Shown piece by piece: positions 7,671 through 58,000 of a stretch of 64,000 nt of DNA. Both the position numbers and the translations under genes were made by a program. The notes under the pieces were generated by a model that ran no database searches, was not told where the DNA came from, and saw nothing but the letters and a program-made list of their open reading frames with translations. This stretch comes from Luteimonas granuli (GTDB lineage: Bacteria; Pseudomonadota; Gammaproteobacteria; Xanthomonadales; Xanthomonadaceae), in the NCBI RefSeq assembly GCF_007795095.1, contig NZ_CP042218.1:2583001-2647000 (forward strand), read 5' to 3'. Each line of letters starts with the position of its first letter. Positions within the stretch are counted from its first letter, which is position 1.

Positions 7671-9518
7671 ATGGCGGGGGCGGCGCTCCCGGTACGCTGC
7701 GTGGTGAGGCGGCGGCTCTTTGCCTGGGCGGTTTCGTGGCTGCTGCTGGCGGGATTCCTGCCCGCCGCACAGGCGGGGCTGCGGATCGAACTGGAGCAGG
7801 GCCTGTCCGCCGGAGACGAGAGGGCCGCGCGGGAACTCGTGGATGCGGTGCTGTGGCGGTTGCCACCGCGCTGGCGAGAGGAGGAGACCGTGCTGCGGCT
7901 GGGCTGGCGGGACGATCTGCCGTCCGGGGTGCATGGGCGGATCCGGGGCGGGCGGATCGGGCTGTCGCGGACCTTGCTGGACCGTGCTGCCGCGTGGCCC
8001 TCGGACGAGGCGGTGGCCGCGCTGGTGCATGAACTGGCCCATGCCCGGGACCGGACGCATGGGCTTTCGCGGGATCCGCGGCTGCTCGACCTGGCGGGAT
8101 GGCAGGTGCGACCGCTGTGGCCCGGGCGCTCGGGCCGCAATGCCTTCGCCTCGCGCAGTCCGGACGTCTACGAGCTGCATTCGCCCGCGGAGTTCGTGGC
8201 CGTGAACCTGGAGCATTACCTGCTCGATCCCGACTACGCCTGCCGCAGGCCTGCGCTGCACGCATGGTTCGCGGAGCACTTCGGCCAAGCGCCCGGGGCG
8301 CCGGCATGCGGGAGTGCGCTGCCGTTCGTGGACGCGGGTGCGCTGTCGGACGCCGCCGCGGCGCCACTGCTGGAGCTCGATCCCGCACGCGTCGCCGGCG
8401 TGGACTATCTGCTGGCGGGCGAGGGCGACGCGGTGATGAGCCGCTGGGGCCACGGCATGCTGCGCCTGGTGGTCTGCGCCCCGGGCCGCAGCCCCGGACC
8501 CGACTGCCGGCTCGACCTCGACCACCACCGCGTACTCTCGTTCCGGGCCTTCGTCGACGACCTGCAGCTCTCGAACTGGCGCGGGCTTGCCGGTGGCTAC
8601 CCCTCGCGGCTGTTCGTGCTGCCGCTGCAGCAGGTGGTCGACGAGTACACGCGCGTGGAGATGCGTCCGCTGGAGTCGATCCCGCTGCGGCTTTCGCCCG
8701 ATGAGATCGGCGCGCTGCTGGAGCGCGCGGCGCGCGTGCACTGGAGCTACGACGGCCGCTATCGCTTCATCGACAACAACTGCGCGGTGGAAACCTGGAA
8801 GCTGCTGCATGACGGCCTTCCGCGCGCCGCGGCGGCCAGGCTCGACAGCATCACGCCCCGGGGTCTTTTGCGCCGCCTGCGCCGCGCCGGTCTCGTGGAC
8901 GCCGCCGCCCTGCCCGCCGATCCCGGCGAGGCGCTCCGGCTGGGCTTCCGCTTCGAACCCTGGAGCGCGCACTACCAGGCGCTGTACGAGACCGCGCGTG
9001 CGGACCTCGGTCTGGCCTATGGCGATGTCGAGGACTGGCTGCGACTGCCACCCGCGCAGCGCGCGCCCTGGCTCCGGCGCGGCGACCTGCGCGCATCCGC
9101 GGCCCTGCTCCTGCTCGAGGAGGCGGCCCTGCGGCGCGAGGAACAGCGCGCTCGCGACATGCTCAAACGCCTGCTGTTCCGCCCCGGCGATCCGCTGCTG
9201 CCGATGTTCGCCGAAGCCCGGCGCGATGGCGCGGCTTTCGCAAGCCCCTCGTCCCTGCTGCCGCTGCCCGGTTATGGCCTGCCGCTGGCTGACGAGCGCG
9301 GCCAGGCCCGCGCCGGTGCCGGCGAGCACGCGGCGCGCACGCGCGCGCTCCACCGGCGCCTGCAGGCCGCGGCCCGCGACCGGCTGCCGCGGGCGACACG
9401 TGATTCGCTGGAGCAGGCGGAAGCCAACGTGGCCGCCCTGGGCGCCCACCTGCGTGAGCTCCACGAGGCGCGGGGAGGGCTGCGTTCCAGGAGCGCGGGG
9501 GCCGCGACAGTTCTCTGA
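7671..9518 (+). CDS. Exported DUF4105 (Lnb_N-like) envelope protein
   Basis: The protein has about 615 residues. A signal peptide ending near PAAQA is followed by a region with HELAHARDRTH, a zinc-metalloprotease-like HExxH variant. Later come the DUF4105 landmarks GHGMLRLVVCAPG and NNCAVETWKLL, the latter holding a conserved Cys. DUF4105-type domains are periplasmic. A possible TTG start at 7653 would overlap the preceding stop (TTGA), and ATG 7671 is used here. Biochemical role is unknown. The HELAHA segment hints at an additional metallopeptidase-like N-terminal region. Confidence 0.8.
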   Translation: MAGAALPVRCVVRRRLFAWAVSWLLLAGFLPAAQAGLRIELEQGLSAGDERAARELVDAVLWRLPPRWREEETVLRLGWRDDLPSGVHGRIRGGRIGLSRTLLDRAAAWPSDEAVAALVHELAHARDRTHGLSRDPRLLDLAGWQVRPLWPGRSGRNAFASRSPDVYELHSPAEFVAVNLEHYLLDPDYACRRPALHAWFAEHFGQAPGAPACGSALPFVDAGALSDAAAAPLLELDPARVAGVDYLLAGEGDAVMSRWGHGMLRLVVCAPGRSPGPDCRLDLDHHRVLSFRAFVDDLQLSNWRGLAGGYPSRLFVLPLQQVVDEYTRVEMRPLESIPLRLSPDEIGALLERAARVHWSYDGRYRFIDNNCAVETWKLLHDGLPRAAAARLDSITPRGLLRRLRRAGLVDAAALPADPGEALRLGFRFEPWSAHYQALYETARADLGLAYGDVEDWLRLPPAQRAPWLRRGDLRASAALLLLEEAALRREEQRARDMLKRLLFRPGDPLLPMFAEARRDGAAFASPSSLLPLPGYGLPLADERGQARAGAGEHAARTRALHRRLQAAARDRLPRATRDSLEQAEANVAALGAHLRELHEARGGLRSRSAGAATVL

Positions 9519-43689: not shown

Positions 43690-43996
43690 CTGCGTAAGCT
43701 TCCCCGTCAAGCAGACATTTCAAAAGTTGAATTTCCGGCGGTTTGACGGTACTCGCCGGCGTCATGTCGCCGAGCGAGTCATGGGGACGCTCCTCGTTGT
43801 ACTCGAGCATCCACCAGTACGCGGCCTGGCTTGCCCGGCTGGATGTATCGGATTGCCATGCCGTTGAGCTTGGCCCACTGCACGAAGGCCTCACCCAGGA
43901 ACTCCGGGCCGTTGTCGGTGCGCAGGACCTGCGGCAGGCCGTGGTCGCGTTTGAGCTGCTCGAAGATGCGGATCAGGCCTGCGTCCCCTCGTTGAA
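43690..43996 (-). pseudogene. Fragment of an IS3-family transposase
   Basis: On the minus strand the pieces VLRTDNGPEFLGEAFVQWAK, then after a deletion and frame change WWMLEYNEERPHDSLGDMTP, are recognisable parts of the integrase core and C-terminus of an IS3-family OrfB. The first part contains the second Asp of the DDE motif. Upstream sequence is missing and the frames do not join, so the element is dead. Its left end is like 38834-38935. Confidence 0.85.
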
Positions 43997-47320: not shown

Positions 47321-49771
47321 ATGTCGAATGAAAGGGAACTCGTCGTGGGCCCGTCGGCCCGCGGAGAGATCATGGAAGAGCCCGCGGGACGGCGGCGGAG
47401 CCGCCCCGGACCGCCCCTGGTGCGCAGTGTCCTTGCCGCCGCGCTCGCATCCCTGCTGCCGATGCACGGCGCAGCGGCGCAGACCGCACCGTCGGAAGGC
47501 GAGGTCCCGGAGAGCCCGCCTGCGGACACGGCCGAGTCCGGCGCGCCGGCGGTCGAACTCGAAACCATCCAGGTCACCGGCACCCGCATCCGGGGCGGCT
47601 CGGTTCCGTCGCCGGTCCTCGCGATCGATTCCGAACAGATCCGCGAAGAAGATTTCAGCGACCTCGGCGACGTCATCCGCAGCATTCCGCAGAACTTCTC
47701 CGGCGGCCAGAACCCCGGCGTGATCAGCGGCAACCTGGCGGGCGCGGGCAACGCCAACCAGAACATCACCGGCGGTTCGGGCCTGAACCTGCGCGGGCTC
47801 GGTGCGGATGCCACGCTGACCCTGCTCAACGGGCGCCGCATGGCCTACGGCGGCTTCACCCAGTCGGTGGACATCAGCGCCATCCCGGTGGAGGCGGTTG
47901 AGCGCATCGAGATCGTGGCCGACGGCGCGTCGGCCATTTACGGCTCCGATGCGGTGGGCGGTGTGGGCAACGTGGTGCTCAAGCGGGAGTACCAGGGCGT
48001 GGGCGCCGGCGCGCGCTTCGGCAAGGCCACGCAGGGCGGGCTGGCCAGTCGCGAGTACCACCTCACCGCGGGCACGACCTGGAGCAGCGGCGGGTTGATC
48101 GCCACCTTCAAGGATGTTTCTGTCGACCCGATCTTCAGCGACCAGAGGTCCTATACCGAGCAGCTTGTGGATCCGTCCACGCTCTATCCGGGCAGCGACG
48201 TGCGCAGTGGACTGCTGAGCGTCCACCAGGCGCTGGGTAGTGCCGTGGAGCTGCGCCTGGATGCGTTTCGCACCGAGCGCGACCAGCGGCACCTGTACAA
48301 CTGGGCCGGGCGCAACAGCCTGCTGACGCCGGACACCACGATGACCTTCGTCTCGCCGGAAGTGGAGGTCTGGCTGCCGAACGGCTGGGCGCTGTCGCTC
48401 GGCGGAGCCATCGGCCGCGACCGGCATAACCAGTACCGCCTGGAGACCATCACCGCGACCGGGATGCAGATCGTCAGCGACGTCTGCTACTGCAACGAGA
48501 GCCTGACCTGGGAACTGGGTGTCGAGGGACCGCTGTTCGCCCTGCCAGCGGGGGACGCACGCCTTGCTGCCGGCATCGGCTACCGGCGCAACGAATTCAT
48601 CAACACGAACCATGCGACCGGAGTCGACACCATCGACGGCCGCGAGAGCGCCCGCTTTGGCTACGCCGAGGTCGACGTGCCGCTGGTCGGAGCGGGACAG
48701 GGCATCCGCGGGGTGGAGCGCCTGTCGTTCACCGCGGCGTTGCGCAGGGAGGACTACAGCAGCTTCGGCGGCGTCAACACGCCGAAGCTTGGCCTGATCT
48801 ACGGCCCGAATGCCGACTTCACGCTGAAGGGGTCCTGGGGCAGGTCGTTCAAGGCGCCGACGCTGTTCGAGCGCCACTACTCGACCGACGCCTGGCTGTA
48901 TTTCCCGAGCAGCTTCGGCGGGGCCGGCTACCCGGCCGATGCGACGGTGCTGGCGCTGGCTGGCGGCAATCAGGACCTGGAGCCGGAACGCGCGAACACC
49001 CGCTCGGTGTCGTTGGCCTGGCACCCGGAGTCGCTGGAAGGCCTGGAGGCGGAACTGACCTGGTTCAGCGTCGACTATCGCAACCGGGTGATCCAGCCGG
49101 TCGCCAATCCGACGCAGGCACTGAGCAACCCGATCTATGCGCCCTTCATCGACCTGACGCCCACGGCCGAAGAACTGGCGGCGGCCATTGCGCGGGCCCG
49201 GAACTTCCAGAGCGTGATCGGCGTTCCGTACGCCCCGGACAAGGTGGCGGCGATCATCTACCTGCAGTACGTCAACGTGGCCCGCCAGGAAATCCGGGGC
49301 GTGGATCTGTCGGGTTCCTACCGGGCCGGGCTGGCGGAGGGAACGCTGACCTTGCGTGGTTCGGTGAGCTGGCTGGAAAGCACGCAGCAGACCCTGCCGG
49401 CCCTGGAGCCGTTCGACCTCGCGGGGACGCTGTTCAACCCGCCGAAGGTCCGTGCGCGGCTGGGTGGGGTGTGGAAGCGGGGCGGGCTGACGGCATCGGC
49501 GTTCGGCAACCACCACGGCGCAGTGACCAATCGCCTGGATGGAGTGGAGTCGACGTCCTTCACCAGCCTGGATCTGGCGCTGCGCTATGCCACCGGGCCG
49601 CGCGGGAATGCGTGGTCGGGCATGGAGTTCGCCCTGTCCGTCGATAACGCGTTCGACCGGGACCCGCCGTTCTACACGGTTTCGGCGCCGCTGTACGTGG
49701 CGCCTTACGACTCGACGAACTATTCGCCGATCGGCCGCTTCCTGAGCCTGTCCGTGTCGAAGCGGTGGTAA
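47321..49771 (+). CDS. TonB-dependent outer-membrane receptor, lasso peptide-associated
   Basis: The 816-residue receptor has an unusually long N-terminal extension before a signal peptide (about 36-54), then a TonB box-like segment and plug (LETIQVTGTRIRGG, DLGDVIRSIPQNF, GLGADATLTLLNGRRMA), and a barrel ending LSLSVSKRW with a terminal Trp. In isopeptidase-containing lasso loci of Proteobacteria a TonB-dependent receptor is typically encoded beside the isopeptidase and is thought to import the lasso peptide. The isopeptidase gene begins 55 bases downstream on the same strand. Confidence 0.88.
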   Translation: MSNERELVVGPSARGEIMEEPAGRRRSRPGPPLVRSVLAAALASLLPMHGAAAQTAPSEGEVPESPPADTAESGAPAVELETIQVTGTRIRGGSVPSPVLAIDSEQIREEDFSDLGDVIRSIPQNFSGGQNPGVISGNLAGAGNANQNITGGSGLNLRGLGADATLTLLNGRRMAYGGFTQSVDISAIPVEAVERIEIVADGASAIYGSDAVGGVGNVVLKREYQGVGAGARFGKATQGGLASREYHLTAGTTWSSGGLIATFKDVSVDPIFSDQRSYTEQLVDPSTLYPGSDVRSGLLSVHQALGSAVELRLDAFRTERDQRHLYNWAGRNSLLTPDTTMTFVSPEVEVWLPNGWALSLGGAIGRDRHNQYRLETITATGMQIVSDVCYCNESLTWELGVEGPLFALPAGDARLAAGIGYRRNEFINTNHATGVDTIDGRESARFGYAEVDVPLVGAGQGIRGVERLSFTAALRREDYSSFGGVNTPKLGLIYGPNADFTLKGSWGRSFKAPTLFERHYSTDAWLYFPSSFGGAGYPADATVLALAGGNQDLEPERANTRSVSLAWHPESLEGLEAELTWFSVDYRNRVIQPVANPTQALSNPIYAPFIDLTPTAEELAAAIARARNFQSVIGVPYAPDKVAAIIYLQYVNVARQEIRGVDLSGSYRAGLAEGTLTLRGSVSWLESTQQTLPALEPFDLAGTLFNPPKVRARLGGVWKRGGLTASAFGNHHGAVTNRLDGVESTSFTSLDLALRYATGPRGNAWSGMEFALSVDNAFDRDPPFYTVSAPLYVAPYDSTNYSPIGRFLSLSVSKRW

Positions 49772-49826
49772 GCCCTTCGGGTTGATCGCGCTGCCCGCTC
49801 CGCGGGCGGCAGCGGAGGAGAAGCTC

Positions 49827-51535
49827 ATGCTGGAACTGATGTGGAGGCGCCTGCTGGCGGGCGCCATGGTGTGCGTCTGTGCCTGTGGTTCGTGGGCCGA
49901 AGCGGTTTCGCCACGGCAACTGCTGGAAGTGGCGGAGATCGGCAGCCCGGTGATCTCTCCGGATGGGCGCAGCGTGGCGTTCCGCGTCGAGCGCGCCTCG
50001 GTCGAGCGCAACACCTGGGGTTCGGTCTGGTACGTGCAGGGTCTGGACGAGGCCGCGCCGCGGCGCGTGGCAGAGGGCGGGGTGCCGCTGCGGGATTCGG
50101 CGGGAGTATCCCTGCCGGTGGCGGCGCTCTGGTCGCCCGACGGCCGATGGATCTACTACCGGGCATTGCTGGACGGGAGGGTCGACGTTTGGCGGGCGGC
50201 GGCGGACGGATCGCAGGCCGGGCGGGTCACTCGGGACTCGGCCGACGTGCGGGACTTCTCGTTGTCTGGCGATGGCGGTTCGATCCGCTACAGCGTAGGC
50301 GCGACGCGCGAGGAGGTGCTGGCGGCCGAGCAGGAGGACTACGAGCGCGGCACCCACATCGATGGCACCGTGCCGATCGGGCAGGGGTTGTTCCGCTCGG
50401 GCAACGTGGAAGGGCGCCTGGCAACGCAGCGCTTCGGCAGCATCTGGTTCTCACGCATGCCGCTGCTCGGAGAAACCCCGGACCGCTGGTACGAGATCGA
50501 CCTTGCGACGGGTGCGAAGCGGGCGCTGGCCGCCGCGGAAGTGAAGGGTCCGCCGCCGACGGCGCTGGGCTTGCCGGAAATGGAAGGGGATCCCTGGCAG
50601 CACGCCCGGAATGCGGGAGGCCAATGGGTCGCCATCCTGACGCGCGTCGGTGATGGCACCGGGCAGCTGGAGCGGCCCGACGTGCTGCTGTCGGTGCTGC
50701 CTGCCGGGGATGCCGCGGGTGCTGTTCACTGCCGTGCGGAGCTGTGCACGGCCAGGGCCATCAGCGGTATCCAGTGGCGGCCTATGCACGACGAGGTCGT
50801 GTTCACCGTCACTGATCCTGCGGAAGGACTGGCTCAGTCGATGTACCGGTGGAACGTGCGCGACGGTGGGGTCTTCGAGGTTGTTCGTGCGCAGGGGCTG
50901 CTGGGCGGCGGGCGTGATCCTTCGTCCCGCTGCGGCATTTCGCCCGCGCATCTGGTGTGCGTGGCGGCCGAGGCCGATCGTCTGCCCAGGCTGGAACGGA
51001 TCGATCTTGAAAACGGAACGCGCCACGTCCTCTTCGAGCCGAACGAGGCGCTGGCAAAGGACCTGGCCCTGGAGGCGCCGGCGCGGCTGCTGCGGTGGGC
51101 GGATGCGCAAGGCCGGCGGTTCACCGGGCAGTTCTACGCCGCGCGCCACGTTGGCGGCACTCCGCCACCATTGTTCGTCACCTATTACAGCTGTCCGGGT
51201 TTCGTGCGCGGCGGGGTCGGGGACGAGTGGCCCCTGGCCTCGCTGGCGCAGGCCGGAATTTCGGCCCTGTGCATCAACCGCCTGCCGGGATACACGATGG
51301 ACGCGGTGGAGCGGCACGGGGAAGGCATGGCGGCCGTCGAGAGTGCCGTCGACATGCTGGCCGCTGAGGGCGAAATCGACCAGGCGCGAGTGGGCATGGG
51401 CGGCCTGAGCTTCGGCGGCGCCGTGACGCTGTGGACTGTCACGGGCTCGGACGTGCTGGCTGCCGCGTCGGTCGCAAATCCCGTCGTGTCGCCGCTGTAT
51501 TACCTGATCGGAAGCATGAATGTCAACGCCGACTG
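49827..51535 (+). pseudogene. Lasso peptide isopeptidase, N-terminal part (gene split by IS21)
   Basis: About 565 residues of a periplasmic prolyl-oligopeptidase-like protein are present. A signal peptide (LLAGAMVCVCACGSWAEA) is followed by beta-propeller repeats and the start of the alpha/beta-hydrolase domain with GLSFGG, Ser528. Lasso isopeptidases of the AtxE2 type linearise lasso peptides at the isopeptide bond and have this Ser. The natural frame reaches GSM at 51516 and is then stopped by the IS21 end. It lacks the catalytic His, so it is inactive. Confidence 0.87.
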
Positions 51536-51592
51536 AAATCTGACCCACTTTGGCCCGTTATCGCCGATTGAAATCTGACCCACCTCGGGCGC

Positions 51593-53394
<1,802 letters not shown>

Positions 53395-53468
53395 AAGACC
53401 GCCATCCTCGCCCGGGTGGGTCAGATTTACATCGGCGCGGGTGGGTCAGTTTTACGTCGGCGGTGACA

Positions 53469-53867
53469 ATGAAGGGCGAGATGTTCTTCGGCAGCCTGCG
53501 GGATATGTGGGGTCTGGGGGATCCCGAAGAAACTCCGGAGCGGTGGCGGGAAATCTCACCCGCGTTAAAGCTGGACCGTGTGCGTGCGCCGATCCTCTTC
53601 CAGCTGCCGGAGCAGGAATACATGTACGCCCTGGATTACGTGATCCCGCTGATGCGGACGCACCGAGCCGATGTCTACGTGTTTTCCCACGAGCCCCACC
53701 AGAAGTTCCAGCCGAGACACAAGCTGGCCGCGTACGAGAGGAACGTCGACTGGTTCAGGTTCTGGCTGCAGGGGTATGAGGACGGGGCGGCGTCGAAGCA
53801 GGCCCAGTACGCGAGGTGGAGGGAGATGCGGGCGGAGTCGGGGAAGAGTGCGGCGGATAAACCCTGA
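53469..53867 (+). pseudogene. Lasso peptide isopeptidase, C-terminal part
   Basis: The frame MKGEMFFGSLRDMWG and onward is the missing end of the isopeptidase. Joining it to 49827-51520 and dropping one ATGAA copy gives 696 codons in frame (695 residues) reading LIGSMKGEMFFGSLRDMWG across the junction. It carries the HEPHQ segment (His637 and His640 in the rejoined protein), the likely catalytic His region. This part has no start signal of its own worth using. Confidence 0.88.
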
Positions 53868-53881
53868 CTTCGCGACCGGCT

Positions 53882-55615
53882 TCAGTGCTGGGTCCTGGCC
53901 TGGTGGCGGACCCAGTTCTCGACCTCGCACAGGTCGAAGATCCGCATGAAGGCGTCGCCCTGGGTGTCGGGGTTCTGGTTGAAGAAGGCGTGCAAGGCAT
54001 CCGTGTCCAGGAATCCGCGACCGGAAAGTTCACCCGCGAGGAGATAGTCACGGAGCCGGCGCCTGTTGTGGCGGTACACCGCGCCGGAGTAGTTCATGAA
54101 AGTGCCCTTGCTGCGGCGGTACAGGATGTCCGGTGGCAGGAGGTCCACGAACGCGTCGCGGGCGATGGCCCTGTTGCGGCCGCCCGTGAACCACATCCAG
54201 CTGGGCACCTTCAGGCAGGCCTCCATCACCGGCTGGGAGAGCAGGGGCATGCGCAGGTGCCTTCGTCCGCCCCGGGCGGCGCCGTCCCGGAAGCCCTGGT
54301 TGCCGGCGAGATCGAAGATGCGCTCACGGTCTCCGGAAAGTGCGCCGGCCGGGGCATCGAACCACGGGTGCAGCGTCGATGCGTCCAGATCGATGGCATG
54401 ACGCAGGAACGAGTGGTCGGGTTTCCGCGGAGGCTTCGGTGGCCCCCTGAGCTTTCTTGCCGCCAGCCGTGCGACCTTCCAGACGGTACATTGATGCAGT
54501 TCGGCCAGGTCGCGGATGGTCCGGATTCCGGCACGGAAGCCGCGCTCACGGAACGCATCGGCCGCCGGGGCGGCTGTCTTGGTGTAACCGAAAACCGTGT
54601 CCCCACCGCCACCTGAAAAGTAGCTGTTGACGTCGAGCTGGCGGCCGATAGTCTCCTTGAGCCGGTTGGATGCATGCTGGAGGAACCAGGTGCTCGGCAC
54701 CGCTGCATGGGAGGGTGGCGGGAACTCGAACTCCGCGTCTTCGATGCGCAGCGATCGGACGTGGATCTCGAAGCCAAGCAGATCGGACATCAGTCCTGCA
54801 TATCGCCGCTCATCAGCACCGGGCACGGGCGTGACGAGATTGCAGCAGTTCACCTCGGAGTCCGCCTCGAGCAGGCAGGCGGCAACGATGGAGGAATCCA
54901 GTCCTCCGGACAGCTCCAGCAGCAGTGTGCGATCGGTCTCGGCCCAGGTACGGACCGCTGAACTCACCACTTGGCGAACGTCTTCCTGGGCGTCCCGGGG
55001 ATGTCGATAGCGCTGGTGGGCGGCAACAAAGTCCCAGGGTGTCCAGGATTCCGCCGTGGCAGCGCGCCGGTCCAGGATATTCAGCACGCGGCCTGGAAGT
55101 AGTTCCTGTACCCCGGAAAGGCCGGTCCGTCCCGTCTTGAGATGGGGATAGGCCAATGTCTCGGAGATGAAGTCCCAGTCGATGCTCCCGCCATGGATTC
55201 CGGCGCGGATGGCCAATGAAATGTCCGAGGTCACGAAGCCGCCCTCGCAGGAGTAGTAGCAGCCAGCGCCACCCGAAGGGTCGCGCAACGCGGAAAGAGC
55301 GCCCCCGTCCCCGTCGTGCAGCAGGATGTACTCTCCCCAGCATTCCTCGATCAACCGATTGACGAGGCGTTCGAACTCCACGTTCTCGAAGCATCCGGAA
55401 TCGCCAACAGGCGTTCCGCTGCTGCGCCAGAAAACATGGCCGACAAGCACGGCGTTGGGTCGGATGTGAAGGAGCGGCGTGCCTGGAGCAACGATCACCG
55501 TGTGCGACGCGAGTGCCTGTGCATTGTCCAGCCCCGCCTGACGCAGCCGGTCGATGACGGCGACATCGCCGCCGTTCGCGCCGTCTGTGTGGGGCAGGGC
55601 AATGTAGCGATACAT
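53882..55615 (-). CDS. Lasso peptide cyclase (asparagine synthetase-like)
   Basis: The 577-residue protein has an N-terminal inactive amidotransferase-like part (about 1-200) and an AsnB-like synthetase domain with the adenylate-forming SGGLDSS at 236-242. Lasso cyclases activate the Glu/Asp side chain in the precursor and close the macrolactam with the core's first Gly. Its ATG overlaps the stop of the B gene (TGATG). It appears intact. A frame open from the IS3 orfA into this gene is a high-GC artefact. Confidence 0.9.
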   Translation of the reverse strand: MYRYIALPHTDGANGGDVAVIDRLRQAGLDNAQALASHTVIVAPGTPLLHIRPNAVLVGHVFWRSSGTPVGDSGCFENVEFERLVNRLIEECWGEYILLHDGDGGALSALRDPSGGAGCYYSCEGGFVTSDISLAIRAGIHGGSIDWDFISETLAYPHLKTGRTGLSGVQELLPGRVLNILDRRAATAESWTPWDFVAAHQRYRHPRDAQEDVRQVVSSAVRTWAETDRTLLLELSGGLDSSIVAACLLEADSEVNCCNLVTPVPGADERRYAGLMSDLLGFEIHVRSLRIEDAEFEFPPPSHAAVPSTWFLQHASNRLKETIGRQLDVNSYFSGGGGDTVFGYTKTAAPAADAFRERGFRAGIRTIRDLAELHQCTVWKVARLAARKLRGPPKPPRKPDHSFLRHAIDLDASTLHPWFDAPAGALSGDRERIFDLAGNQGFRDGAARGGRRHLRMPLLSQPVMEACLKVPSWMWFTGGRNRAIARDAFVDLLPPDILYRRSKGTFMNYSGAVYRHNRRRLRDYLLAGELSGRGFLDTDALHAFFNQNPDTQGDAFMRIFDLCEVENWVRHQARTQH

Positions 55616-55994
55616 CAGACGACCCGGATCGGAATGTGGGAGGCGACATTCCCCAAGGTGTCGTTCAGGACAAGGTCTCCTGCCTGTACCCAGCAGTGGG
55701 CGGAAAACGGGTCGATGGCGACACCGAAGACGATGTTGGCGTGCAGTTTTCGTTTCTGCAGAAACTTCACAAGCGCCAGGGAGTCGATCAGGCAGCGCAT
55801 TCCCACTGGCACGAACAGCCGGACTTGCCGGAACACCGCTGCTGCACGAATGAGGCGATCCTCTTCGGGGGCGGGAGATGAAGCGTTCCAGACGCCAGCG
55901 CTGCGTCGGCCCCGGGCCACCCTGTCGAGAACCTGCGCGAACGGAAGCAGCTCCAATCTGAGCTTCGCTGCGAGAACGATCGCAACGACTTCCG
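55615..55994 (-). pseudogene. Lasso precursor peptidase (B2 half), detached by IS3
   Basis: This is the C-terminal part of a fused RRE-peptidase. In the rejoined 225-residue protein the transglutaminase-like catalytic residues are Cys167 (GMRCLIDS), His199 (SAHCW) and Asp211 (LVLND). This half keeps all three. Reading upstream into the IS end gives a GTG at 56019 that would add eight element-encoded residues (MQKPLGHYT, the last codon spanning the junction), so it could be made as a separate protein. Confidence 0.85.
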
Positions 55995-56022
55995 TGTAAT
56001 GACCCAGCGGTTTCTGCACAGG

Positions 56023-56841
56023 TCAGGCCGCTAAAGCATAAGCCTCGGCGGGGGTCTTCATGCCCAGCGCCTGGTGCGGGCGCCGGTGGTTGTAGAACTG
56101 GATCCAGTCGCCAATGACGCGGCTGGCGTGCTGCTGGCTCTCGAAACGGTGGCGGTGCGCGCACTGCTCCTTCAGCGTCCGGATGACGCGCTCCACCATG
56201 CCGTTCTGCTGCGGGCAGTGCGGGGTGATGAACTCCTGCCGCAGGCCGTAGCTGCGCACGAGCCGCGTGTAGTCGCGGCTGGTGAACACCAGGCCGTTGT
56301 CCGAGCGCAGCAGGAAGGGACTCTGCACCCGCCCGAGGGTCCCGAAGCGGGTGATCAGCGCCTGCTCCAGTGCCGCGGCCGCGGTGCTGGCCTTGCCGCT
56401 GCGCGAGAGATGCCAGCCGAGCAGCTGCCGGGTATAGCAGTCGATCACCAGGGCCAAGGTCAACCAGTTGTCGCTGCCACCCCAGATCCGGCACAGGTCG
56501 GTCGCCCAACGTTCGTCGGGCGCTTGCGCCACCGACGGCAACGCCTGGATCCGGGGGCGACAGCCAACAGACCGTTTGCGGACCTGCCAGCCCATCAGCT
56601 GGAAGATCCGCTGTACCGTGTTCTTGTTCATGTCCAGGAGCCCCGCCACTGTCCGGTAGCCGAACGACGGCTCGGCCTCGATCAGTGCCTTGATCGGCTC
56701 CGCCAGCTCCGGCCGGACCTTGGGCGGCGCCTTGGTCGGCTGGTAGTACACGGTCCGCCGCGCCACGCCGAACCACCGGCACAGCTTCACCATCGAGACC
56801 TCGAACCCATCGTCCCGCAGTCCCTGCTGGATCGAGACCAT
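56023..56841 (-). CDS. IS3-family transposase OrfB
   Basis: The 272-residue integrase-core protein has DDE residues in WATDLCRIW, LRSDNGLVF and GMVERVIRTLKEQ, and HTH-like sequence N-terminal. It ends close to the element end. The ATG overlaps the orfA stop (TGATG). Confidence 0.95.
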   Translation of the reverse strand: MVSIQQGLRDDGFEVSMVKLCRWFGVARRTVYYQPTKAPPKVRPELAEPIKALIEAEPSFGYRTVAGLLDMNKNTVQRIFQLMGWQVRKRSVGCRPRIQALPSVAQAPDERWATDLCRIWGGSDNWLTLALVIDCYTRQLLGWHLSRSGKASTAAAALEQALITRFGTLGRVQSPFLLRSDNGLVFTSRDYTRLVRSYGLRQEFITPHCPQQNGMVERVIRTLKEQCAHRHRFESQQHASRVIGDWIQFYNHRRPHQALGMKTPAEAYALAA

Positions 56842-57154
56842 CAGGTCTCGTCCTTGCCCAACAGGGACGCCAATTTTTTCGGGCGCGCAGCTCCAGCATG
56901 GCTTCGCCGTAGGCTTCCTGGAGGTCCTTGAGCTGACGCTCGTACTGTTCGCGTACGTCCTCGGGCTTCGCCCGCAGGGCGTTCTCCATCCCCCGCTTGC
57001 CGTCCTCGACCCAGCTCTCGATCTCGGACGGCGTCAGGTCGAACTGCCGGCTGGCCTCGGCCACTGTCGTCTTGCCCTGGATGATCTCCAGAACCAGCGC
57101 CGACTTCCGCCGTGCCGTCCAACGCTTGATCTCTTCTTCCATCACTTGGCTCAT
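56841..57154 (-). CDS. IS3-family OrfA with A6 frameshift site
   Basis: OrfA begins MSQVMEEEIKRWTARRKSAL and has an HTH (TTVAEASRQFDLTPSEIESW). The stop at 56841 is reached only if the ribosome shifts back one base at AAAAAA (56874-56879), giving RARKKLASLLGKDET. Without the shift the frame runs on open. Either this is programmed frameshifting, which IS3 elements use, or one A has been lost. Confidence 0.8.
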
Positions 57155-57191
57155 CGTGCTCTCCGTGAAAAGGTAGCACCTGAGCAGGAAA

Positions 57192-57509
57192 TCACTGGGT
57201 CATTACATCCGCTGCGTCCCGAAGACGGGGCGGGGAATCCGGGATCGGGATCTCCATGGCGCTGCGAGCGGGCACGGCGGCTTCGGGTGAATCGTCCACG
57301 ACTCGATCGGGCCGCTTTACCAGTACGTTGCCTGCGACGAGTGCGCTCACGTCGATGCCGACTGCAGGGCCGGCATCGAGGTACGCGATCAGTGCCCGTT
57401 CCTGTGCGGGTGGAAGCGTGAGGTAGCGATCAGCTTCGACGTCGAGGAAGATCAGCCTGCCGCCCGCATGGCAGAACGAAAGGCTGGGCCGCAGCTGGTA
57501 GCTGGTCAT
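57192..57509 (-). pseudogene. Lasso RRE (B1) half, cut off by IS3
   Basis: The N-terminal part of the B gene encodes a PqqD-like RiPP recognition element (MTSYQLRPSLSFCHAGGRLI, FLDVEADRYLTLPPAQ) that binds the precursor leader. The natural frame reads to 57208 and then stops in the IS end after DAADVMTQ. Rejoining with 55615-55990 and one TCCG copy gives 226 codons in frame with DAAEVVAIVLAAKL at the seam. RBS GGAGATTGAC is visible upstream. Confidence 0.85.
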
Positions 57510-57530
57510 GTCAATCTCCAGAGAGAAGAA

Positions 57531-57550
57531 GGGGCGCACCGGTGCGCCCC
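57531..57550 (-). terminator. Hairpin between lasso precursors and B gene
   Basis: A perfect 20-base palindrome GGGGCGCACCGGTGCGCCCC lies eight bases after the A2 stop and 21 bases before the B start. On the minus strand it is followed by TTCTTCTCTC. This is probably an attenuator that lets precursor transcripts outnumber the enzyme transcripts, rather than a full stop. Confidence 0.7.
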
Positions 57551-57557
57551 TCCACGC

Positions 57558-57707
57558 TCAGTCCTGAGCGATTCCGAAGGACCAGAAACCGCCCATGTCC
57601 TCGCCGATCAGAGTCCCTCCTCTGGTTTCGACGCTGGCAACGGCCAGGATGCAGCGGGCTTCTTCCGTGGCCTCCACTGGGAGGCTCTCGTTCCACGTGG
57701 TTTCCAT
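57558..57707 (-). CDS. Lasso peptide precursor A2 (xanthomonin-like)
   Basis: The 49-residue precursor has a leader METTWNESLPVEATEEARCI...VASVETR and core GGTLIGEDMGGFWSFGIAQD. The leader ends T-R with Thr at the position -2 needed by lasso enzymes, and the core starts with Gly and has Glu at 7 (Asp at 8). Xanthomonins (GGPLAGEE...) have a 7-residue ring between Gly1 and Glu7, and this core fits that pattern. RBS AGGAGACAG precedes the ATG. Confidence 0.85.
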   Translation of the reverse strand: METTWNESLPVEATEEARCILAVASVETRGGTLIGEDMGGFWSFGIAQD

Positions 57708-57758
57708 GGTGACTGTCTCCTGTGCAGGAATGCTTCGAAAGTGCAGAAGCTTTCCTCA

Positions 57759-57899
57759 TCAATCCTCGGAGATCCCGGGGATGTAGGGATTGCCGACGTC
57801 CTCGCCAACGAGGGCGCCACCCTTGGTGTCGAGGCTCGCGACACCGAGCGGGGTAGCTTCTTCGTGCGTATCGGTGCACGGAATGACGTTCGCGTTCAT
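57759..57899 (-). CDS. Lasso peptide precursor A1 (xanthomonin-like)
   Basis: The 46-residue precursor has a leader beginning MNANVIPCTDTHEEATPLGV and ending LDTK, then the core GGALVGEDVGNPYIPGISED. Gly1 and Glu7 predict a 7-residue ring and Thr lies at -2. The core is close to xanthomonin I (GGPLAGEEIGG...). A1 and A2 share the pattern VAS-x-x-T-(K/R)-GG-x-L-x-GED-x-G. RBS AAGGAGACAGCA precedes the ATG. It is too short for normal gene callers. Confidence 0.87.
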   Translation of the reverse strand: MNANVIPCTDTHEEATPLGVASLDTKGGALVGEDVGNPYIPGISED

Positions 57900-57959
57900 T
57901 GCTGTCTCCTTGTTCGCCATGGATATTCATGGCAGTGACAAGGCTGCACGCACGAAAAT

Positions 57960-58000
57960 TTGATTATCAAGTAATTAATGCTGTGTTCTTTGATGATCAA
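57960..58000. promoter_or_regulatory. Twin palindromes upstream of lasso precursor A1
   Basis: TTGATTATCAA (57960-57970) and TTGATGATCAA (57990-58000) are near-identical palindromes exactly 30 bases apart, about three helical turns. One overlaps a possible minus-strand promoter, TTGATC with a 17-base spacer and TAATTA. The single-base spacer differs from FNR (TTGAT-N4-ATCAA), so FNR is not suggested. The bound regulator is unknown. Confidence 0.6.

Follow-up and report, generated by a model that had tools for sequence, protein, structure and literature searches.

A xanthomonin-type lasso peptide cluster of a Luteimonas with insertion sequences in its B and isopeptidase genes

The 64,000-nucleotide stretch of DNA analysed here (the window) carries what we consider, with a probability of about 0.8, to be a xanthomonin-type class II lasso peptide cluster (gene order A-A-B-C) of a Luteimonas, which was recently hit by two insertion sequences (ISs) and makes little or no product. 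An earlier, sequence-only reading had placed a cyclase, an RRE, a peptidase, an isopeptidase and a TonB receptor in the same 10 kb as two precursor genes. All of these do lie within 10.6 kb (47321-57899); however, what had been read as an RRE and a peptidase is a single B gene that an IS has divided, and the isopeptidase is likewise divided into two pieces by another IS. The intact system which that reading implied therefore has to be given up: the cyclase (C) and the receptor are open, as in an intact xanthomonin-type cluster, but an IS lies within each of the B and isopeptidase genes. As a result, the expectation for extracts of the strain also changes.

Loci compared

Ninety-nine loci were compared with the window, 20 from its own genome and genus and 79 from named genomes, the latter being the best 79 of at least 315 confirmed. 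For the own-genus set, 20 of the 27 matched places were taken, with the window's own place and six others left out. Counts for the B gene exclude eight loci without a match for one or both halves (L068, L091, L114, L115, L117, L118, L120 and L121), and counts for the isopeptidase exclude eight loci without both pieces (L044, L083, L099, L105, L106, L111, L117 and L118). Ten loci duplicate a cyclase; nine are the same place found twice and enter both counts of 91, and the tenth, L118, is another record and enters neither. A first scan of genome contigs with the cyclase alone as query returned no relative, and a search of a plasmid collection found related cyclases in 25 records, each of them below 60% identity and under an alphaproteobacterial name.

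Precursor genes and cores

Both precursor genes are located on the minus strand. Precursor A2 (57759..57899) encodes 46 residues from an ATG at 57899, with the core GGALVGEDVGNPYIPGISED, and has the place and type of xanthomonin I; precursor A1 (57558..57707) encodes 49 residues, with the core GGTLIGEDMGGFWSFGIAQD, and has the place and type of xanthomonin II. For A2, 57899 is the preferred start, because many relatives open with MN.N and the residues added by a longer frame overlap the ribosome-binding site (RBS). The NCBIfam model NF033522 (benenodin family), with a curated cut-off of 33 bits, matched A2 at 33.9 bits and A1 at 27.1 bits, below that cut-off; the Pfam subterisin model matched A2, also below its cut-off. 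Moreover, relatives of A1 and A2 were both found at the equivalent position next to related cyclases, and this, together with the NF033522 matches, upholds the earlier claim that the two genes are real, beyond chance. The features described for each gene were also confirmed, namely its own RBS (AAGGAG ahead of A2, AGGAG ahead of A1), a leader Thr at -2, Gly1 and Glu7.

The earlier reading knew of no description of the two cores, and fragments of cores (four from the window and two from relatives) were absent from the literature searched, whose coverage leaves out most subscription papers. By their sequences, the window cores are two added lasso peptides of the known xanthomonin type, with expected seven-residue rings. 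The monoisotopic masses calculated for the predicted lassos are 1939.916 (20 residues) or 1495.731 (residues 1-16) for A2 and 2038.909 or 1611.703 for A1.

Among the loci compared, one from Luteimonas lumbrici (L101, NZ_ML636798.1, frame within 7938-8267, plus strand) exhibited three leader-like ends in a single precursor frame, each leading into a core that starts with Gly and has Glu at position 8 (GIPVGTTEPLGRDDVL, GIPGKLDEPLGHWAI and GFPVGADEPLGMNFQTGISAE). This frame is a possible multi-core lasso precursor.

Cyclase, clade and ring position

The lasso cyclase gene (53882..55615, minus strand) is open, with 577 residues and a PF00733 match. Its name is taken from its place and its relatives, as its scores fell below the cut-offs of NCBIfam's models for lasso cyclases. 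In a tree of 90 distinct cyclases, built with a quick method and SH-aLRT support values, the window cyclase belonged to a clade of 18 rows (support 100), comprising nine Xanthomonas loci (two of them from X. hortorum) and loci from Rhodanobacter, Dyella, Luteimonas and a Lysobacteraceae bacterium. Its grouping with the xanthomonin I/II-type loci of X. hortorum was tested with 500 label shuffles, none of which gave a value as low, with the group label fixed before shuffling.

The X. hortorum loci in the clade (L048 and L049) carry GGPLAGEEIGGFNVPGISEE and GGPLAGEEMGGITTLGISQD, and their cores begin GGPLAGEEIGG... and GGPLAGEEMGG.... We take these GGPLAGEE cores to be xanthomonins I and II, which Hegemann et al. 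reportedly described from Xanthomonas in 2014. This assignment fits the presence of a xanthomonin I/II cluster in X. hortorum strains, one pathovar of which is without half of it, according to the excerpted text of PMC9062649. The GGPLAGEE-type core string itself occurred in no paper of the literature searched. The window resembles xanthomonins I and II in having two precursors in the same order, with Gly1, Gly6-Glu7, an acid at position 8 and Thr at -2, as well as a cyclase in the same clade; L048 and L049 also have an adjoining B gene, isopeptidase and TonB receptor. It differs in core residues 3-5 (ALV and TLI versus PLA), in Asp for Glu at position 8, in a distinct loop and tail, and in its cyclase, which is 57-58% identical; moreover, B and isopeptidase are interrupted only in the window and not in the X. 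hortorum loci.

The nearest cyclases in the tree were those of a same-genus locus (L024, genome G029; support 98) and of Lysobacteraceae bacterium NML93-0399 (L043; support 96). The cores of these loci and the window are closely alike by eye (GGALVGEDIGDPFIPGISEG with GGALLGEDMGNTTLPGIAED, and GSALIGEDVGGRYTPGISED with GTNKIGEDMGGFWAGGISQE), whereas B and isopeptidase are uninterrupted in L043 and L024. In order and sequence, A2 and A1 match the first and second precursor, respectively, of the X. hortorum loci. The clade of the cyclase, the order of the precursor pair and an invariant Glu7 beside a variable position 8 all bear out the suggestion that the two peptides are new members of the xanthomonin type.

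Whether the ring closes at Glu7 or Asp8 had been left open. Among 19 distinct cores from the 17 other loci of the clade, Glu7 was present in all 19, and residue 8 was Glu (10 cores), Asp (4), Val (4) or Phe (1). With Glu7 invariant and an acid missing from position 8 in 5 of the 19 cores, these sequences are best read as closing the ring at Glu7, and closure at Asp8 was rejected on the same grounds. The E7D variant of xanthomonin II, which excerpts of PMC4960549 list among variants with production not confirmed, likewise points to Glu7 and not Asp8. A benenodin-family assignment of the precursors was also rejected: only A2 exceeded the NF033522 cut-off, and benenodin-1 has an eight-residue ring (PMC13352647, in the portion available), at odds, on sequence grounds, with an invariant Glu7 and a position 8 that is not always acidic in the clade. 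StcA of Stenotrophomonas acidaminiphila is a similar lasso peptide, for which a seven-residue macrolactam closed at Glu7 was predicted (PMC4675943; the same core occurs in L090). StcA differs in having one precursor found and a cyclase located elsewhere in the tree.

Two loci in the comparison, L065 and L099, come from contigs labelled Paenibacillus dendritiformis G25-126, and their cyclases are placed among those of Lysobacteraceae and Rhodanobacteraceae. These contigs are possibly contamination.

Interruption of the B gene

The B gene, on the minus strand, is interrupted by an IS3-family element of 1,213 bp (55995..57207, minus strand), with the ends TGTAATGACCCAG and CTGGGTCATTACA and a target duplication, CGGA, at 57208-57211 and 55991-55994. 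The 5' half of the gene, with the RRE domain (57192..57509), matched no Pfam or NCBIfam model. Among the last five residues of its frame, the first spans the junction, and the other four and the stop are supplied by the IS. The 3' half, with the peptidase (B2) domain (55615..56019), matched PF13471 and NF033537 (78.5 bits, over the cut-off, profile positions 9-131 of 132). Its first eight codons, including a GTG start located three bases past the transposase stop on the same strand, lie within the IS, and the ninth spans the junction. The element is present in three copies in the genome, identical across their full length; the other two have different flanks, one with a 4-bp duplication (L122) and one without a target duplication (L123). 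The family names of this and the second IS were assigned from Pfam matches and from the usual habits of IS3 and IS21 elements.

B was in one open frame in all 91 related loci in which both halves were found (among the 99 compared), and none of them shared a split that could be ancestral. The fused form is thus typical of the group and the split form of the window is derived. One example of an uninterrupted cluster is that of Rhodanobacter sp. FW104-R8 (L110). Native, separate B1 and B2 genes were rejected for the same reason, the DNA that parts the halves being moreover a mobile element with a target duplication. An open frame of 1,090 residues (53882-57154) was also rejected as a fusion protein; it corresponds to the stop-less frame of the transposase's first gene, which is by chance in phase with the cyclase.

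The IS entered B in the linker, or in the first helix, between the RRE and peptidase domains. The halves are separate open frames that hold whole domains, so that production is not necessarily zero. This raises the question of whether the insertion made a working pair of B1 (RRE) and B2 (peptidase) proteins, with lassos still being made and left unopened by the local isopeptidase. The match of the peptidase half to the B2 family begins at profile position 9 (of 132), and this half was predicted to be compact (pLDDT 82, pTM 0.79), with its final 13 residues mostly below 50; in an alignment of 28 rows, C76 and H108 were invariant and N119 near-invariant. The Cys and His are presumably catalytic. 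Neither a profile search of this half against PDB sequences nor a fold search against PDB gave a significant match, the former giving none at all, which speaks against a working pair, as do the nine IS or junction residues that replace its native start. For the RRE half, the six top Foldseek matches were all solved lasso B1 chains (TbiB1, 6jx3), but these matches were weak (best E 5.7e-3, TM by query length 0.34-0.38), the model was uncertain (pLDDT 76, pTM 0.52) and a profile search returned a single match at chance level.

Translation is a further difficulty. No RBS was visible ahead of the peptidase GTG, and it is doubtful that B2 is translated by coupling to the transposase stop as part of a functioning, IS-made pair. 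An artificially split rubrivinodin B, a proteobacterial protein that is naturally fused, still gave detectable lasso at a significantly lower yield, but that construct had been given an RBS (PMC5067487, as excerpted). On balance, we regard a working pair as unlikely; were the split B to work, the strain may accumulate unopened lasso, since the local isopeptidase is lost.

Interruption of the isopeptidase gene

The second insertion is that of an IS21-family element of 1,948 bp (51521..53468, minus strand; PF01695 and PF00665), with an IstA-like gene (52366-53394), an IstB-like gene (51593-52369) and a target duplication, ATGAA, at 51516-51520 and 53469-53473. It is present in three identical copies in the genome, the others having different flanks. 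The element parts an isopeptidase gene on the plus strand into an N-terminal piece (49782..51520; NF033523, 479 bits, profile positions 1-540), which contains the GLSFGG serine motif, and a C-terminal piece (53469..53867; profile positions 543-638), which contains the conserved His region. The frame of the N-terminal piece continues 16 bases into the IS, and its stop ends at 51536. Alignments with AtxE2 gave the same allocation of the serine motif and the His region to the two pieces. The Ser and His, which we take to be catalytic, are therefore not on one chain as in the Atxe2 family, profile positions 1-540 and 543-638 (of 638) being parted by 1,948 bp.

The isopeptidase was contiguous in 90 of the 91 loci in which both pieces were found (among the 99 compared). 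The exception was L038, from a same-genus genome (G011), in which the isopeptidase pieces are in different frames and TonB receptor matches occur in two frames; this is perhaps another decaying receptor/isopeptidase arm.

In the window, the TonB-dependent receptor gene (47321..49771, plus strand; 816 residues; PF00593 and PF07715) is open, and the receptor and isopeptidase genes converge on the A-A-B-C genes. About 3.4 kb before the receptor gene, a partial rve transposase match below the family cut-off (43827-43961, minus strand) is perhaps an IS remnant. The genome is not unusually rich in such elements, with 8 rve-type transposase matches versus 0-10 in the 15 same-genus genomes searched.

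Both interruptions might also have been created by an assembler that misplaced IS copies, both genes being whole in the organism. The completeness estimate for this one-contig assembly (89.98%) gives some reason for caution, as only 2 of the 36 same-genus genomes listed had lower values (88 and 89). Nevertheless, the target duplications are exact at both insertions (CGGA and ATGAA) and the other IS copies lie in other flanks, and such an artefact is very improbable.

We retain the reading of a damaged cluster. Points against it are the cyclase that scores below the NCBIfam models, the changed base of the -10-like element described below and, as regards recency, the L123 copy of the IS3-family element without a target duplication. 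Judged from the identity of the three copies of each IS, the damage is apparently recent, which would be why the precursors, the cyclase and the receptor are still open.

DNA upstream of the precursors

The 130 bases 5' of the first precursor could be aligned between the window and the 17 other loci of the clade, with a common order of a TTGAAA-like element, 18 bases, a TA...T element, an inverted repeat and the RBS. In the window, a promoter-like TTGATA-18-CAGCCT (57941..57970, minus strand) upstream of A2 aligns with the TTGAAA-like-18-TA... of the relatives; a scan for consensus promoters detected none upstream of A2. The first base of the -10-like element (57941-57946, minus strand) is T in all 17 other aligned loci of the clade, but the window has C. 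Since this conserved base is altered, the locus may have been weak earlier.

Right before the RBS of the first precursor, an inverted repeat like GTCATGG...CCATGAC was observed, which varies within the clade and is GCCATGAATATCCATGGC in the window (57916-57933). Two TTGATNATCAA palindromes, 30 bp apart, were also observed upstream of A2 (57960-57970 and 57990-58000). The pair at that spacing is unique in its own genome, and the palindrome was missing from all 79 loci searched, these being the best 79 of at least 315 confirmed in named genomes.

Between A1 and B there is a GC-rich hairpin (57528..57553, minus strand). A similar hairpin was present in all 12 clade loci that were folded, out of the 17 others. 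Hairpin removal is tabulated as a strategy for astexin-1 in the available part of PMC7549694.

A second lasso locus in the genome

A second lasso locus starts about 19 kb from the precursors, outside the window (genome positions 2659681-2676170; L126 and L031). It has three TonB receptors, two uninterrupted isopeptidases (723 and 727 residues), three precursors with the cores GGGGATNEPYGRLIVPGIVEE, GLAGDGEPYGAIVLPGIAED and GGVFETGEHMGLNIGVGISEE, and a single B/C pair found, in open frames (B, 225 residues; C, 579 residues). Two of the precursors are located directly downstream of receptors, on the opposite strand. Moreover, the window receptor (47321-49771) and one at genome 2665505-2667973 exhibit a near-identical N-terminal stretch (MSNERELVVGPSARGEIMEEPAGRRR...), yet are 65% alike over their first 491 residues; this is perhaps a trace of duplication or gene conversion.

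The open B, C and isopeptidase frames of this nearby locus count against the reading of a damaged, unproductive cluster, as these enzymes might process the window precursors in trans. The leaders of both loci end in a ...SVETKG-type sequence, which would favour such a rescue. Against it, the B halves and C of the second locus are 46-49% identical to those of the window (peptidase half 46%, cyclase 49%), and its cyclase belongs to a different part of the 90-cyclase tree; in addition, a paeninodin B1/B2 pair failed to cut a caulonodin precursor, as stated in excerpts of PMC5067487. Given the divergence of the enzymes and the place of the cyclase, rescue in trans is possible and not favoured, and we judge it improbable.

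Discussion

Taken with the reading of a recently damaged cluster, the uninterrupted locus would have worked as described for members of its family. Leader binding would fall to the RRE half of B, and cleavage behind the T-K or T-R dipeptide to the peptidase half. C would then close a ring between Gly1 and Glu7 around the tail, so that two lassos with rings of seven residues were formed; each lasso would be imported by the receptor and opened by the isopeptidase. As the sequence shows, the IS3-family insertion has cut B at the domain border, so that its halves are now separate open frames, and the insertion of the IS21-family element has broken the isopeptidase. In the present strain the cluster is most likely silent or near-silent, with little or no lasso made.

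Split B proteins are known from the paeninodin, lariatin and streptomonomicin systems, which, like the window, have the RRE and peptidase on separate open frames (PMC5067487). The window differs from them in that its split is IS-made, within a gene that its relatives have in fused form. The available sections of the same paper describe the characterised proteobacterial B proteins as all intact and mention a putative type of proteobacterial cluster in which a kinase accompanies a divided B; in this phylum, a split B would therefore not be unprecedented. Neither a kinase nor an ABC transporter was found among the ten window frames scanned by profile. No description of an IS-split lasso B gene was found in the literature searched, most subscription papers being outside its coverage and some sources being covered in part. 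A laboratory analogue comes from Sphingomonas, in which a mutant with Tn5 inserted into B2 of a lasso cluster had stopped using phenanthrene (PMC11006600, as excerpted). As far as these sequences go, the two cores add new members to a known type, and the IS-made split of B is a variant.

The cyclase clade of xanthomonins I and II is now seen in Xanthomonas, Rhodanobacter, Dyella, Luteimonas and a Lysobacteraceae bacterium. The expectation of an intact system in this Luteimonas has been corrected, and the case indicates that gene-by-gene calling of lasso clusters can overlook IS damage. Whether B proteins evolved from fused to split or the other way round is called unknown in the accessible text of PMC5067487. 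If the two halves of the window's B did function together, they would exemplify, in nature, how split B proteins can arise by division; with a natural and apparently recent split at a domain border, a division origin of these proteins may be tested on a real case.
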